Below, piece after piece: positions 15,261-23,554 of a stretch of 42,308 nucleotides of DNA; positions within the stretch are counted from its first letter, which is position 1; every line of letters begins with the position of its first letter. The DNA is taken from positions 1-42,308 of the forward strand of contig JADFOP010000015.1 in assembly GCA_022562795.1 (NCBI GenBank). Reading direction: 5' to 3'. The notes under the pieces are model-generated. The model saw only the letters and a list, made by a program, of their open reading frames with translations. It ran no database searches and had not been told where the DNA came from. The translations under genes and the position numbers were made by a program. This stretch comes from Nitrospinota bacterium. GTDB lineage: Bacteria > JADFOP01.

Positions 15261-16087
15261 TCACCCCTCCCCTCGCACTATCCGGTCGATGGCGAGGACG
15301 GGCTCGAGCAGGGCGGGGAGCTCTTCGAGGGGCCACTGGTTGGGCCCGTCGCAGAGGGCTTTCTCCGGGTTGGGGTGGACCTCGAGGAAGAGGGCGTCGC
15401 AGCCGGCGGCCGCGGCGGCCCGGGCGAGATGAGGGATGAAGCGGCGCTCGCCGCCGCTAGAGCTCCCCTGCGCACCGGGAAGCTGCACGGCGTGTGTGAC
15501 ATCGAAGACGACCGGGTAGCCGAGAGAGCGCATGATGGCCAACCCCCGCATGTCGGCCACGAGGTTGGAGTAGCCAAAGGCGGTCCCCCGCTCGGTGAGC
15601 AAGATATCTTCGTTACCCTGAGAGCGGATTTTCTCCACCACGTGTTCGACGTCCCACGGGGCGAGAAACTGGCCCTTTTTGATATTGACCGGTTTGCCCG
15701 TCGCTGCGGCGGATGTAACGAGATCGGTCTGGCGGCAGAGGAAAGCGGGAATCTGAATGCAGTCAAGAACCTGGGCGGCGGGCTCGACCTCTTCGAGCGA
15801 GTGGACGTCAGAGAGGATCGGCAGGCCGGTCTCTTCTTTAACCCGGCGGAGGATTTCCAGGCCCTCGGCAAGCCCCGGGCCTCGGAAGCTCTCGAAGCTC
15901 GTGCGGTTGGCTTTGTCGTAGGACGACTTGTAGATGACCCCGACCCCCAGGCTCTCTCCCACGGCTTTGAGCCTTAGGGCTACCTCGATGGCGAGCTCCG
16001 CGCTTTCGATAACACAGGGCCCGGCGATGAGGGCAAGCGGCTCGTCGCCGCCGACAGCCACCCGGCCTACAGTGACGGTACGTCCCA

Positions 16088-16088
<1 letters not shown>
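15261..16088 (-). CDS. kdsA: 3-deoxy-8-phosphooctulonate synthase, metal-dependent class
   Basis: Condenses phosphoenolpyruvate and arabinose 5-phosphate to Kdo 8-phosphate, the first dedicated step to Kdo. The 275 residues show IAGPCVIES with Cys25, a metal ligand that is Asn in the metal-independent E. coli type, so this belongs to the Aquifex-like metal-dependent class. Other expected ligands are visible in FDVTHAVQLPG (His), FLEVHPNP (Glu) and CDGPNQW (Asp). KSSYDKANRTS and SDVHS are core substrate motifs. The start is GTG, sharing one base with the pyrG stop (TAGTG), with GGGAG five bases upstream. It is the last gene of the epimerase-ycaR-msbA-kdsB-pyrG-kdsA run; kdsC and kdsD are not in the window. 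Confidence 0.96.
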
Positions 16089-18522
<2,434 letters not shown>

Positions 18523-18533
18523 CCCTCCCCCCG

Positions 18534-20315
18534 TCAGCCCACCGGCTCGCGGTCGGCTCCCTCGATATACTGCAGGTCGTAGAGTTTTCGGTAGAGCCCG
18601 CCCTTGGCGTAGAGGGCCTCGTGGGTGCCCTGCTCCAGCACCTCATCTTCGTCAAGGACGATTATGGTGTCGGCGTTAATGATTGTTGAGAATCGGTGGG
18701 CGATGACGCAGACCGTCCGGTTTTCCATGAGGCGGTTCAGGGCCTTCTGGACAAGTTTTTCGCTCTCGGAATCGAGGGCGCTCGTGGCCTCGTCGAGGAT
18801 GAGAATGGGCGGATCCTTGATGAGGGCCCGGGCGATGGCGAGCCGCTGGCGCTCGCCTCCGGAGAGCTTCACCCCTCGGTCGCCGATGACGGATTCGTAG
18901 CCCTCGGGCATCTGGACGATGAAGTCGTGGGCGTAAGCGGCCCGGGCGGCGGCCTCCACCTGGGCGTCCGTCGCGTCCTGGCGGCCGTAGCAGATGTTGT
19001 TGCGAACCGTGTCATTGAAAAGGAAGGTATCTTGGGCCACAATGCCGATTTGATCCCGCAGGCTCTGGAGGCTCGCCTCGGCGATGTCCACCCCGTCGAT
19101 GGTGATCCGCCCCTTCGTGACCTCGAAGAAACGGGGAATGAGGTCCACGAGGGTTGACTTTCCCACCCCGCTCATGCCGGCGATGGCGACGATCTGGCCC
19201 TTGGGCACCCGGAGCGTGATGTCCTTCAAGACCCAGTCGCCCTTGGGGTAGCGGAACCATACGTGCTCGAAGGCGAGCTCCCGCTGGATGGGCGCCAGGG
19301 CCACTTCTCCTGTCACCTCCATGGGCTCGGGCTCAGAATCGAGAATCTCATAGGCCCGCTGGGAAGCGGCCATGGCCTGCTGAATTTTATTGTAGGAGCG
19401 CGACAGCTTGCGGATGGGACCGTAGAGCATGAAGAGGGCCACCATGAACGAGGAGAACTCGCCTGCCGTGAGCGCCCCGGTTATGACCCGCATGCCGCCG
19501 ATCCATACGAGGGAGGCCAAAGCGAAGGCCCCGAAAAACTCCATTGCAGGGCTGGTCATCTCCACGTACTTTAAGGACTTTCGCATCACATCGAAAAACC
19601 GCAGGTTTTCCTCCGCGTAGCGGTCTGCCTCGTAATCTTCCATCCCAAATGCCTTGATAATGCGTGCGCCCGTGATGGTCTCCTGCAGGATGGCGTTCAT
19701 GTCAGCCATCTTTTCCTGGCTGCGTCTCGACAGGTTCTTGAGCTTTTCGCCTACGCCGTATAGGAATACAACACACAGCGGCAGGACCAGAACACTGATG
19801 GCGGCCAGCTGCCAGTCGCGCCAGAAGAGGACCACCAGAAGGGCAACGATGGAGAGGTTCTCCCGGACGAGGTCGGCTAGGAGGTTGCTGACCGCGCCCT
19901 CCATGAGGGAGATGTCGTTGGAGATGCGGCTCATCAGCTCTCCGGTTCGTCGCTCGTGGAAGAAGGTCAAAGGAAGCGTCTGAATGTGGGCGTACATATC
20001 GTTTCTAAGCTGCATGACCACGTGGACGCCTATGATGTTCATAGTGTAGCCGGCGATGAACCGGGAAGCCCCTCGCACACCGTAGAGGATGATGACGATG
20101 AACGGCAATAGCTTAAGCCATACCATGTTCTTTTCTAGAAAGATTTTGTCTAGCACGGGCTGGACAATCCAGGCCGTGGCCCCGGTGGTGACGCTCACCA
20201 CCACCATGCAACCCATAGCGGCGAAGAGCTTGGGGTAGTGGGGCCTGGCGTAGCCCATCAACCGACGGTACAACTTAATGGAGAACTTCGTCCTATCGAT
20301 CACCGGCATAGCCAT
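18534..20315 (-). CDS. msbA: Lipid A export ABC transporter MsbA
   Basis: Homodimeric flippase that moves lipid A-core across the inner membrane using ATP. The 593 residues contain six membrane segments within about 25-310. The nucleotide-binding domain follows, with Walker A GMSGVGKST (380-388), Q-loop near 428, signature LSGGERQ (484-490), Walker B ILILDEA (504-510) and H-loop His540. Length and architecture fit MsbA. The ATG at 20315 (Ala, then a second ATG) has a modest GAGAG site. It follows ycaR by 17 bases and precedes kdsB by 11, echoing the msbA-lpxK-ycaR-kdsB block of Enterobacteria. Confidence 0.94.
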   Translation of the reverse strand: MAMPVIDRTKFSIKLYRRLMGYARPHYPKLFAAMGCMVVVSVTTGATAWIVQPVLDKIFLEKNMVWLKLLPFIVIILYGVRGASRFIAGYTMNIIGVHVVMQLRNDMYAHIQTLPLTFFHERRTGELMSRISNDISLMEGAVSNLLADLVRENLSIVALLVVLFWRDWQLAAISVLVLPLCVVFLYGVGEKLKNLSRRSQEKMADMNAILQETITGARIIKAFGMEDYEADRYAEENLRFFDVMRKSLKYVEMTSPAMEFFGAFALASLVWIGGMRVITGALTAGEFSSFMVALFMLYGPIRKLSRSYNKIQQAMAASQRAYEILDSEPEPMEVTGEVALAPIQRELAFEHVWFRYPKGDWVLKDITLRVPKGQIVAIAGMSGVGKSTLVDLIPRFFEVTKGRITIDGVDIAEASLQSLRDQIGIVAQDTFLFNDTVRNNICYGRQDATDAQVEAAARAAYAHDFIVQMPEGYESVIGDRGVKLSGGERQRLAIARALIKDPPILILDEATSALDSESEKLVQKALNRLMENRTVCVIAHRFSTIINADTIIVLDEDEVLEQGTHEALYAKGGLYRKLYDLQYIEGADREPVG

Positions 20316-20521: not shown

Positions 20522-21466
20522 TTACCATCCTCCCTTCAGCCAGCTAACCTGGCGGGCCAGGCCTTCTTCGAGCTCGAAAGTGGGCTTCCAGCCCAACTCC
20601 TCGCGGGCCCGCGTGGTTTCGGCGACCGTGTGACGCATATCCCCGAGCTGAACCGCTTCGTATTGCAGGGTGGGGGTTACGCCGGACGCTCGGGCCAGGA
20701 TCTCAATGGTGTCGTTGATGGTTACCCGGGCTCCTCCCCCCACGTTATAGACCATCCCGGGCCTGCCCCGCTCGACCGCTGCCAGCGTGGCCTCCACAGC
20801 ATCGGTCACATAGGTGAAATCTCGGGTCTGCTCGCCGTCGCCGAAGATGTGAATCGGCGCGCCGTCGAGCATAGCCCGTATGAAGCGGTGGAAGGCCATA
20901 TCGGGCCGCTGGCGGGGGCCGAAGACCGTGAAGTACCGAAGGGCCACAGTGGGCACCCCGTACGACTTCTCGTACAGGTAACAGAGGGCTTCGCAGGCGA
21001 GCTTCGTCACCCCGTAGGGAGAGATGGGCCGGGTGGGGCCGTCCTCCCGCATGGGGAGAGTCTCCACATCGCCGTAGACCGAGGAGGAGGAGGCAACGAT
21101 AAAGGCCTTCAGGGGATGCGGGCTGAGGGCTGCTGCCTCCAGCAGGCGCTGGGTGGCATCGATGTTGTTCGCCGTGTAGAGGTGAAAATCCTCCCCCCAG
21201 CTTGCGCGCACTCCAGCCTGGGCCGCCAGGTGGAATACCACGTCTACGCCCTCAAGGAGCCGCCCGCCGTCTGCTTCCACTAGGTCCGCCTCGAGGAAGG
21301 TGAAGGCGGGATGGTCGAGGGGCCCCTCGATGTTCTTTTCCTTAACGCTCCGGGGGTAGTAGTCGAGGAAGTTATCGACGCCCCGGACGGTCCAGCCCCG
21401 CTGAAGGAGCCGTTCAGTGAGGTGAGAGCCTATGAAGCCGGCTGCACCGGTCACAAGCGCGTGCAT
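20522..21466 (-). CDS. NAD-dependent nucleotide-sugar epimerase/dehydratase (GalE-like SDR)
   Basis: Extended short-chain dehydrogenase of 314 residues. It has the GAAGFIG NAD motif (7-13), the SSSSVYG stretch (127-132) and the catalytic YxxxK as Tyr151 and Lys155 (SPYGVTKLA). The sequence is closest in feel to UDP-glucuronate or UDP-glucose 4-epimerases (DNFLDYYPRSVKEKN, RYFTVFGPRQRPDMA), so it probably makes a hexose or uronic-acid donor for the LPS core; the sugar is not determined. The ATG at 21466 starts directly on the Rossmann fold and has AAGGAG nine bases upstream; the long in-frame extension to 21583 crosses the predicted promoter and is rejected. First gene of the run ending with kdsA. 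Confidence 0.9.
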   Translation of the reverse strand: MHALVTGAAGFIGSHLTERLLQRGWTVRGVDNFLDYYPRSVKEKNIEGPLDHPAFTFLEADLVEADGGRLLEGVDVVFHLAAQAGVRASWGEDFHLYTANNIDATQRLLEAAALSPHPLKAFIVASSSSVYGDVETLPMREDGPTRPISPYGVTKLACEALCYLYEKSYGVPTVALRYFTVFGPRQRPDMAFHRFIRAMLDGAPIHIFGDGEQTRDFTYVTDAVEATLAAVERGRPGMVYNVGGGARVTINDTIEILARASGVTPTLQYEAVQLGDMRHTVAETTRAREELGWKPTFELEEGLARQVSWLKGGW

Positions 21467-21512
21467 GATCTCCCGCTCCTTAATGTGGGCAGGCCTGGGG
21501 CAAACCGCCGTC

Positions 21513-21541
21513 TTTCTACCACACCAATCAAGTCCTGTAAA
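21513..21541 (-). promoter_or_regulatory. Putative promoter for the epimerase-ycaR-msbA-kdsB-pyrG-kdsA operon
   Basis: TTTACA (21536-21541) and TAGAAA (21513-21518) with a 17-base spacer on the minus strand, in the 181-base gap after gmhB. A start near 21506 would leave a leader of about 40 bases. Both hexamers deviate from consensus, so confidence is moderate. Confidence 0.42.
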
Positions 21542-21647
21542 GGCATGCGACCAAAGGGCCTCAGCCGCCTGGACTCTCGTCAAGTTCCCTAATCACGCCC
21601 GGGCTGCATCTCCGAACTACAATCGGAGGCTCCACGCTCAACACCCC

Positions 21648-22487
21648 CTAGAGCCGCCGAACGTTGAGCACCGTCTGGATCATACCGACCTCGCCCATCA
21701 CCTGCTCCAGCTGCTTCAGGTCTCCGACCTCAATGGCCAAGTGGATATGGGCCCGCTGGTCGCCGCTCGTCAGTACACTGCATTCGGCGATGTTGACCTT
21801 GGAGTCGGCGATGGCGTTTGTGACAGTGGCGAGCACCCCCGGCCGGTTGAGCGTCTCCACGAGGATACGAACAGTTTGAGGGTGCCTCCGCACCACGAAT
21901 CCCTCGACATCGATTTTCCGCTCGGTAAGCCACCAGCTAACGGCATCAGCGAGGTCTAGAGCTACATAGTTGGGCACCGGATTCCACGTCAGGCCCTTTT
22001 GCTCCTGTTCGCCCCGCCCGTAGCCGGTCAGCACGAGGATGCCCTCCATCTGCTCGGCCTTGGCCATGGCGACATCCTGATAGCGGTCGCTCACAAGTAC
22101 CGACCGGGTGAGATCTAGCTCGAGGTCGGCCGCCGCCTTGTGGAGCATCCCAGGCCGAGGTTTCCTCGCGTCGCACTCGACCCGATATTTTTCCACTTTC
22201 GCCTCTGGGTGGTGGGGGCAATAGTAAATTCGGTCGATTCGGGCACCGCTGGTGGCGATGGACTCCCTCAACTTCCTCTGGACGGACCGCAGGGTCTCCT
22301 CAGAAAAAATCCCATGGGCTAGGCCTGCCTGGTTGCTCACCACCACCACGGGGATGCGCGCTTCGTTGAGCCGACGGATGGCCTCCGCCGCGCCGGGAAG
22401 GATCCGGAAGCGGTCCACATGGTTGATGTAGCCCATCTCTTCGTTGATGACCCCATCGCGATCTATGAAAAAGGCCGGTCGGGTCAC
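21648..22487 (-). CDS. gmhB: D-glycero-manno-heptose 1,7-bisphosphate phosphatase fused to a RelA-type ACT domain
   Basis: GmhB removes the C7 phosphate of heptose bisphosphate on the way to ADP-heptose. Residues 1-190 form the HAD phosphatase: nucleophile Asp9 and Asp11 (DRDGVIN), SNQAG (51-55), KPRPGM (109-114) and VSDRYQD (132-138). The zinc loop has Cys90, His92 and Cys105, but the fourth ligand of the usual CxC is Ala107. Residues 205-279 form an added ACT domain (VRILVETLNRPGVLATVTNAI...IHLAIEVGDLKQLEQVM), close in pattern to the C-terminal ACT of RelA/SpoT. Ordinary GmhB is about 190 residues and lacks this. The GTG start overlaps the preceding stop as GTGA, with GGAGG seven bases upstream. 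The domain fusion is visible directly; amino-acid control is inferred. Confidence 0.92.
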   Translation of the reverse strand: MTRPAFFIDRDGVINEEMGYINHVDRFRILPGAAEAIRRLNEARIPVVVVSNQAGLAHGIFSEETLRSVQRKLRESIATSGARIDRIYYCPHHPEAKVEKYRVECDARKPRPGMLHKAAADLELDLTRSVLVSDRYQDVAMAKAEQMEGILVLTGYGRGEQEQKGLTWNPVPNYVALDLADAVSWWLTERKIDVEGFVVRRHPQTVRILVETLNRPGVLATVTNAIADSKVNIAECSVLTSGDQRAHIHLAIEVGDLKQLEQVMGEVGMIQTVLNVRRL

Positions 22488-23554
22488 GATCGCACCTCCC
22501 CTGATGCGGCCCGCCCCACCAGCACCTCTTCGGCGGCCGCGACCACCGCCTCAACCGAGACGCCCACGAGGCAGTCGTGCCCGATGGGACAGGTTTTAAG
22601 AAAACAGGGGGAGCAGTCCACCGGGTGGGTTACCACCTGATGACCCGCCCCGTAAGGGCCGGTCAGCCGAGGGTCGGTCGGGCCGAAGAGGGCCACGACG
22701 GGACAGCCGGCTGCGGCGGCCAGATGCATCGCACCAGAATCATTGGTCACGGCGATGCGGGCGCGGGCAAAGAGGGCGGCCACCGCCCGCAGCGACGGGA
22801 AGAAGGCCGCCGGCGCAGCCTCGTCCATGGCCCGCCGAACCGAATCGACGATCCCCTCCTCCCCTGGCCCGCCGACGATGACCGGCTCGAGGCCTAGGCG
22901 CGTCCTGAGCTCCCCACCGAGGGCGGCGAACCGCTCAGGCGCCCAGCGCTTGGTCGACCAGCGTCCTCCAGGGCTGAGGAGCGCCACGGGCCGGTGGGGA
23001 CCGAGGCCCGCCGCGTCGAGAAACCGGTCGGCCTCCTCGTAGTCGGCGGAAACGAGGCCCAGGGGGAAGGTCACCTCATGGGTCCTACCGGTGATCGCCT
23101 CAGCCACGAGCATGTAGCGGTCCACGGCGTGCATCGGCCCGTCGGGCACGGCAACCCGTCGGGTATAAAACCTGGGGGCTTGCTCCCGCCCGCTGGCGAA
23201 GCCGACCCGCTCAGCAGCGCCTGAGGCGAAGCCCAGCAGAGCGCTTCGCAACAGCCCCTGGAGGTCGACGACGAGCTCGAAGCGCCGACTTCTCAAGGTT
23301 CGAACGAGGCCTGCCACTTCTACGGCCGAGCGGGGCAGGCGTCGCAGGCGGCCCCAGGCGGCGCGGTCGAACAGTAACACCTCATCAAGCTGGGGGTGGC
23401 CGCCCAGAAGCGAGGCGTAAGCTGGAGCTACGACCCAGCTGATGAAGGCATCTGGGTAGGCCCGGCGCAGGGCCGCCAGCACCGGCAGGCTGTGGACGAC
23501 ATCGCCCAAGCTGGACGGCTTAATGATGCAGATGCGCTGGGGTCGTCGGGCCAT
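22484..23554 (-). CDS. waaC: Heptosyltransferase I-like glycosyltransferase (GT9, WaaC-type)
   Basis: GT9 enzyme using ADP-heptose; by its opening ICIIKPSSLGDVVHSLPVLAALR it resembles WaaC, which adds the first heptose to Kdo. The 356 residues form two Rossmann-like halves. The second half has PGGRWSTKRWAPERFAAL and the donor-site motif TNDSGAMHLAAAAGCPVVALFGPTDP. The C-terminus carries a Cys cluster (CSPCFLKTCPIGHDC). It starts ten bases after the next GT9 gene and overlaps gmhB by four bases, so donor synthesis and heptosyl transfer are coupled. The WaaC assignment among the five GT9 paralogues here is the best guess from the N-terminal motif. Confidence 0.82.
   Translation of the reverse strand: MARRPQRICIIKPSSLGDVVHSLPVLAALRRAYPDAFISWVVAPAYASLLGGHPQLDEVLLFDRAAWGRLRRLPRSAVEVAGLVRTLRSRRFELVVDLQGLLRSALLGFASGAAERVGFASGREQAPRFYTRRVAVPDGPMHAVDRYMLVAEAITGRTHEVTFPLGLVSADYEEADRFLDAAGLGPHRPVALLSPGGRWSTKRWAPERFAALGGELRTRLGLEPVIVGGPGEEGIVDSVRRAMDEAAPAAFFPSLRAVAALFARARIAVTNDSGAMHLAAAAGCPVVALFGPTDPRLTGPYGAGHQVVTHPVDCSPCFLKTCPIGHDCLVGVSVEAVVAAAEEVLVGRAASGEVRS

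Follow-up and report, generated by a model that had tools for sequence, protein, structure and literature searches.

A GmhB-type phosphatase with a C-terminal Rel-type ACT domain in the lipopolysaccharide gene cluster of a Nitrospinota bacterium

The stretch of DNA analysed here, called the window in the following, is a contig of 42,308 nucleotides from a Nitrospinota bacterium. On its minus strand one uninterrupted frame of 279 codons (21648-22487), read directly from the window sequence, runs from a GmhB-type phosphatase domain through a Rel-like linker into a C-terminal ACT domain (Table 1), exactly at the coordinates and in the single frame which a first-pass annotation had given. As judged from this frame and its two domains, a GmhB-type phosphatase and a Rel-type ACT tail are joined in one protein and the fusion is real. 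The GTG at codon 198 might, speculatively, serve as an internal start for a free ACT domain of about 82 amino acids, and its occurrence could also be due to chance. Scanning of the window with Rfam gave no match, and a promoter and terminator scan around the fusion gene found none.

The gene overlaps the heptosyltransferase gene directly upstream by 4 nucleotides (22484-22487) and is embedded in a cluster of lipopolysaccharide (LPS) genes, with heptosyltransferases upstream and the epimerase, MsbA, KdsB, CTP synthase, and KdsA following downstream. In about 14 other loci, including one in a genome of the same class (G002), the gene immediately ahead of gmhB encodes a heptosyltransferase, and the same epimerase follows gmhB in four other loci with 51-58% identity. 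With its neighbours on both sides conserved in other genomes, the tail thus sits inside a conserved gene order. GmhA and a two-domain HldE are encoded side by side on contig C22 of the same genome, and no second GmhB-like gene was found in this genome, which is 97% complete. The fusion protein is therefore the only visible candidate for the GmhB step.

Table 1. Location of the fusion gene, its parts, its neighbours, and the stand-alone Rel-like ACT genes of the genus
Feature	Location	Strand	Basis
Whole fusion gene, 279 amino acids, GTG start, stop 21648-21650	21648..22487	-	frame reading
GmhB-type HAD-IIIA phosphatase domain, residues 3-186	21930..22481	-	profile, alignment, model
Linker, residues 187-204, with TERKIDVEGFVVRRHP, resembling Rel (the genome's own Rel has LDRRIDVHWDVKKKKP)	21876..21929	-	comparison with Rel
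Rel-type ACT domain, residues 205-278, N-R-P-G loop 214-217, K230/V231/N232	21654..21875	-	profile, alignment, model
In-frame GTG (codon 198), GAGG 5 nt upstream	21894..21905	-	sequence only
LPS heptosyltransferase (GT9), upstream neighbour	22484..23554	-	gene annotation
NAD-dependent nucleotide-sugar epimerase/dehydratase, downstream neighbour	20522..21583	-	gene annotation
KdsA, CTP synthase, KdsB, MsbA, remaining LPS cluster	15261..20315	-	gene annotation
Stand-alone Rel-like ACT, own genome	G000:C6:44080-44565 (L003:1342-1833)	-	ACT match
Stand-alone Rel-like ACT, congener	G001:C760 (L034:4531-5013)	-	ACT match
Stand-alone Rel-like ACT, congener	G001:C751 (L033:586-1074)	-	ACT match

For the phosphatase half the earlier assignment to GmhB is supported by profile searches, in which NF006506 (GmhB) matches residues 3-186 with an E value of 3.7e-49, and GmhB is the best-scoring family by a wide margin (166.7 bits versus 76 for HisB). 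While the cut-offs of TIGR01656 and TIGR01662 are exceeded, the score falls slightly under those of the two curated GmhB families (166.7 bits versus 178 for NF006506, and 131.8 versus 149.6 for TIGR00213), so that by a strict test this half is GmhB-like rather than a certified GmhB. The catalytic residues of HAD-IIIA enzymes (DxD, Ser/Thr, Lys, Asp) are retained as D9, D11, S51, K109, and D134. The zinc site, Cys-x-His followed by Cys-x-Cys, is incomplete, with C90, H92, and C105 retained and an alanine at position 107 (codon at 22167-22169 of the window) replacing the fourth cysteine. The zinc ligands of E. coli GmhB we take to be C92, H94, C107, and C109, the numbering of the fusion being two lower. 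In an alignment of relatives C-x-C is present in 98 of 112 rows; a few relatives likewise have no fourth zinc cysteine, for example the one at locus L049 (C-x-F). The missing ligand together with the scores under the curated cut-offs means that phosphatase activity could be altered. The predicted structure is a confident GmhB fold with a target-normalised TM score of 0.90 to E. coli GmhB (3l8e), and the activity predicted for the fusion protein is that of a heptose 1,7-bisphosphate 7-phosphatase.

The C-terminal ACT domain which had been proposed is borne out by PF13291 (ACT_4), which matches residues 205-278 with an E value of 8.7e-17 and 62 bits against a gathering cut-off of 27, or with 65 bits in a scan of the tail by itself, and an absence of any significant ACT hit, which would have spoken against the proposal, was thus not what the search returned. 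Among the Pfam families named for this check, ACT (PF01842, 44.7 bits versus 27) and ACT_4 score above their cut-offs and ACT_7 stays below its own. The likeness to the ACT domain of RelA/SpoT holds as well. Compared by sequence with solved structures, the tail matches Rel ACT domains best (6lxg, E 3.9e-11; RelA 8fr8, 2e-7), TIGR00691 matches the tail by its last 75 positions, and the identity to the Rel protein of the same genome is 62%. The hydrolase, synthetase, and TGS domains of long RSH (Rel) proteins are absent from the 279 amino acid protein according to profile searches. The modelled domain has the ACT-like order strand-helix-strand-strand-helix; model confidence is low here, with pLDDT values of about 60-70, and below 50 in the linker from residue 196 to 203.

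At the nucleotide level the identity of the tail to the rel gene of its own genome is 70.5%. The identity to the Rel of the congener is about 61-62%, and to the stand-alone ACT proteins of the genus 52-55%, the own-genome copy standing at 52%. Within its genome the tail matches just two other places, the end of Rel and a stand-alone ACT protein of 163 amino acids, and a search with the ACT_4 profile adds one weak match below threshold. The match to Rel begins at residue 188-189, about 15 residues ahead of the ACT domain, with TERKIDVEGF in the fusion and LDRRIDVHWD in Rel, and Rel proteins from an unrelated phylum also start to match at residues 187-189. As the likeness starts before the ACT domain, gmhB probably received a copied rel 3' end, the simplest reading being that about the last 90 codons were copied. 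The direct donor may have been rel, which is favoured by identity, or a stand-alone ACT gene, as the ACT tree, in which the members of the genus cluster with weak support (86/74), places the fusion beside the stand-alone ACTs of the genus (94/90).

These stand-alone proteins, of which the congener G001 encodes two in addition to one Rel, are 160-163 amino acids long and have a conserved C-terminal region. Their genes adjoin pyruvate phosphate dikinase and a gene of the FAH family, or PEP synthase. They belong to the same genus-specific ACT group as the fusion but have no attached enzyme. Outside the genus no clear copies of them were found in 60 genomes, where weaker matches lay mostly in frames of Rel length.

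The architecture was looked for in 80 named loci, in 386 genomes spread over families, and in 95 genomes of one phylum rich in GmhB, the lineage itself being sampled by three genomes of its class only. None of the 80 named relatives spans both domains, none does so among the matches listed for the 386 genomes, that of the window excepted, and none in the 95 genomes. That GmhB is normally made without an ACT domain, as had been stated in the first-pass annotation, agrees with a count of homologues, in which 174 further GmhB-like frames, a few of them the same gene counted more than once, were read through to their stop codons and no ACT fusion was seen. Tails of more than 35 amino acids are present in 8 of the 174 and none is ACT-like in a sensitive profile search. 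Judged by eye, other C-terminal extensions of GmhB resemble a nucleotidyltransferase (L008:1006-2076) or a P-loop kinase (L119, L125), none of them an ACT domain, and L222 carries a further non-ACT extension. GmhB-like matches in frames of 550-890 amino acids (G405, G408, G409, G226, and relatives) have no C-terminal extension, and are therefore probably N-terminally fused or simply long open frames. In the congener G001, which is 85% complete, no gmhB was found. In what could be searched the fusion is a singleton from one genome and seemingly unique, and a literature search found no paper naming GmhB together with an ACT domain.

With GmhB (E. coli 2gmw/3l8e) the fusion shares the HAD-IIIA fold, the catalytic residues, and the LPS gene context, and it differs from the surveyed GmhB proteins by its C-terminal ACT domain, the alanine at the fourth zinc position, and its scores slightly under the curated cut-offs. 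With the ACT (RRM) domain of Rel/RelA the tail shares its sequence, the strand ahead of the ACT domain, and part of the valine cleft, whereas in Rel this domain sits on catalytic, TGS, helical, and zinc-finger domains rather than on a sugar-phosphate phosphatase. Mycobacterial SerB2, like the fusion, combines a HAD phosphatase with ACT domains, and in SerB2 an amino acid controls activity via changes of the oligomer (PMC4270767, PMC10564941). As the substrate of SerB2 belongs to the serine pathway, this control is plain end-product feedback. The ACT domains of SerB2 are N-terminal and paired, and the HAD subfamily and ACT type also differ, so that the fusion, with its C-terminal ACT domain and its HAD of the IIIA/GmhB type, is not SerB-like. 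ACT-bearing HAD phosphatases and a mobile Rel ACT domain were already known; what is new is a GmhB carrying a Rel-type ACT domain.

In a mycobacterial Rel the isolated ACT domain forms dimers, and valine binds in a cleft where the two subunits meet, as mapped by NMR (PMC12561398). Compared with this domain, four cleft residues of the fusion are identical (L219, T223, K230, and V231), two are conservatively exchanged (N214 and V218), and residues 234-236 differ, being A-E-C in the fusion versus L-S-A. By a correspondence drawn in this analysis N232 would align with an asparagine of R. capsulatus Rel, the replacement of which abolished amino acid binding according to the passage of PMC7058999 that cites Fang and Bauer 2018. 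The P-G loop of the fusion is also found in the Rel of the congener; the Rel of the same genome (G000:C26, L002) has DQTGVLA there, and with the proline of the loop lost its amino acid binding may be changed.

The partly kept cleft, the dimers formed by Rel ACT domains, and the precedent of SerB2 lead to an amino-acid-responsive phosphatase, controlled through its dimer, as the leading model, to which we assign a probability of roughly 0.45. A rel gene of the genus would have donated its 3' end, consisting of the short strand ahead of the ACT domain and the ACT domain itself, to the 3' end of gmhB, and the product would be a two-domain D,D-heptose-1,7-bisphosphate 7-phosphatase. Its ACT tails would dimerise side by side like isolated Rel ACT domains, and the cleft between them would take up a small ligand, a branched-chain amino acid being the likeliest. 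Binding might alter the oligomeric state of the phosphatase or access to its active site, as L-serine does in SerB2, an ACT-bearing HAD phosphatase (PMC10564941), and the supply of ADP-heptose would then follow the amino acid status, activation under plentiful amino acids being the simpler guess as to the sign. Control of the phosphatase by amino acids, which the first-pass annotation had put forward, is plausible in the light of these residues. We know of no case in which amino acids exert direct allosteric control over the synthesis of ADP-heptose. In B. subtilis Rel the C-terminal part binds leucine, yet the hydrolase is not activated by it, and a Rel protein that binds an amino acid is not necessarily regulated by it (PMC7058999). 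Since both E. coli and Klebsiella have a partly redundant GmhB (PMC9302095), control at this step might just modulate the ADP-heptose supply.

The main rival, doubtful but still to be taken seriously, is that the ACT domain acts as a structural or docking module which dimerises GmhB, or pairs it with Rel or the stand-alone ACT proteins, with no sensing involved. Rel ACT domains do dimerise (PMC12561398), and with three closely related ACT types coexisting in one genus heterologous pairing is possible. The changes at cleft residues 234-236 also fit a docking role, whereas the N-R-P-G loop and the K-V-N of the cleft have been retained in the fusion while the genome's own Rel has lost the proline of that loop (DQTG). 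In an extended form of the pairing idea, which we regard as a long shot, the Rel-derived modules of the genus, the GmhB fusion as well as the stand-alone proteins encoded beside PEP-forming enzymes, would pair with each other and with Rel, and contacts between ACT domains would tie together the stringent response, amino acid levels, PEP/pyruvate metabolism, and LPS-core synthesis.

It is unlikely that the tail is a tolerated passenger from an accidental fusion. The architecture occurs in one genome only, with no congener carrying it, and along the fusion branch alone dN/dS has a median of 0.31 and lies below 1 in 96.5% of replicates, the bootstrap interval of 0.12-1.25 including 1. However, the tail has diverged from Rel by about 38% at the protein level without a stop codon or frameshift, and the pairwise comparison with the genome's own Rel (synonymous differences at 22 codons and replacements at 33; dN 0.28, dS 0.84) yields a dN/dS of 0.33 with a codon bootstrap interval of 0.11-0.43. 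Over such a distance decay would be likely for a passenger, and the substitutions accumulated after the split are suggestive of purifying selection, if with modest power.

Rather less probable still is a HAD-IIIA phosphatase with another substrate, such as a phosphate of an amino acid pathway, on which an ACT domain would be natural. The HAD-IIIA group includes histidinol-phosphatase, and the scores under the NF006506 and TIGR00213 cut-offs and the alanine in place of the last zinc-site cysteine, with C-x-C in most relatives, would fit such an enzyme. Against it stand the margin by which GmhB surpasses HisB, the heptosyltransferase directly upstream with LPS genes around it, and the lack of any other GmhB-like match in a genome with GmhA and HldE.

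An artefact of assembly or reading frame, by which gmhB would have been joined to a rel-like 3' end of separate origin, is hardly credible, although a draft genome of 84 contigs and a single occurrence could be cited for it. It was rejected because the frame is single, codon-position GC is alike in both halves (GC3 0.76 and 0.80), the LPS neighbours are conserved on both sides, the tail shares just 70.5% of its DNA sequence with rel, and no sign was found of the joint between separate genes that the first-pass annotation had considered. A recent chimera with the genome's own rel gene was rejected on the same DNA identity.

If the leading model of an amino-acid-responsive phosphatase is true, a Rel sensor placed on GmhB would be a compact link between nutrient status and the assembly of the outer membrane. 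The fusion would also place the ACT domain of Rel on a soluble enzyme of small size, whose activity can be followed simply by the release of phosphate, and could so help to resolve the dispute over whether a signal is passed on when an amino acid binds to this domain in Rel. The wider pattern of ACT modules derived from Rel, dispersed within a single genus, may be of greater interest than the fusion itself. While it is not proof, the fusion suggests that the building of the outer membrane in this bacterium may be tuned to nutrient status.
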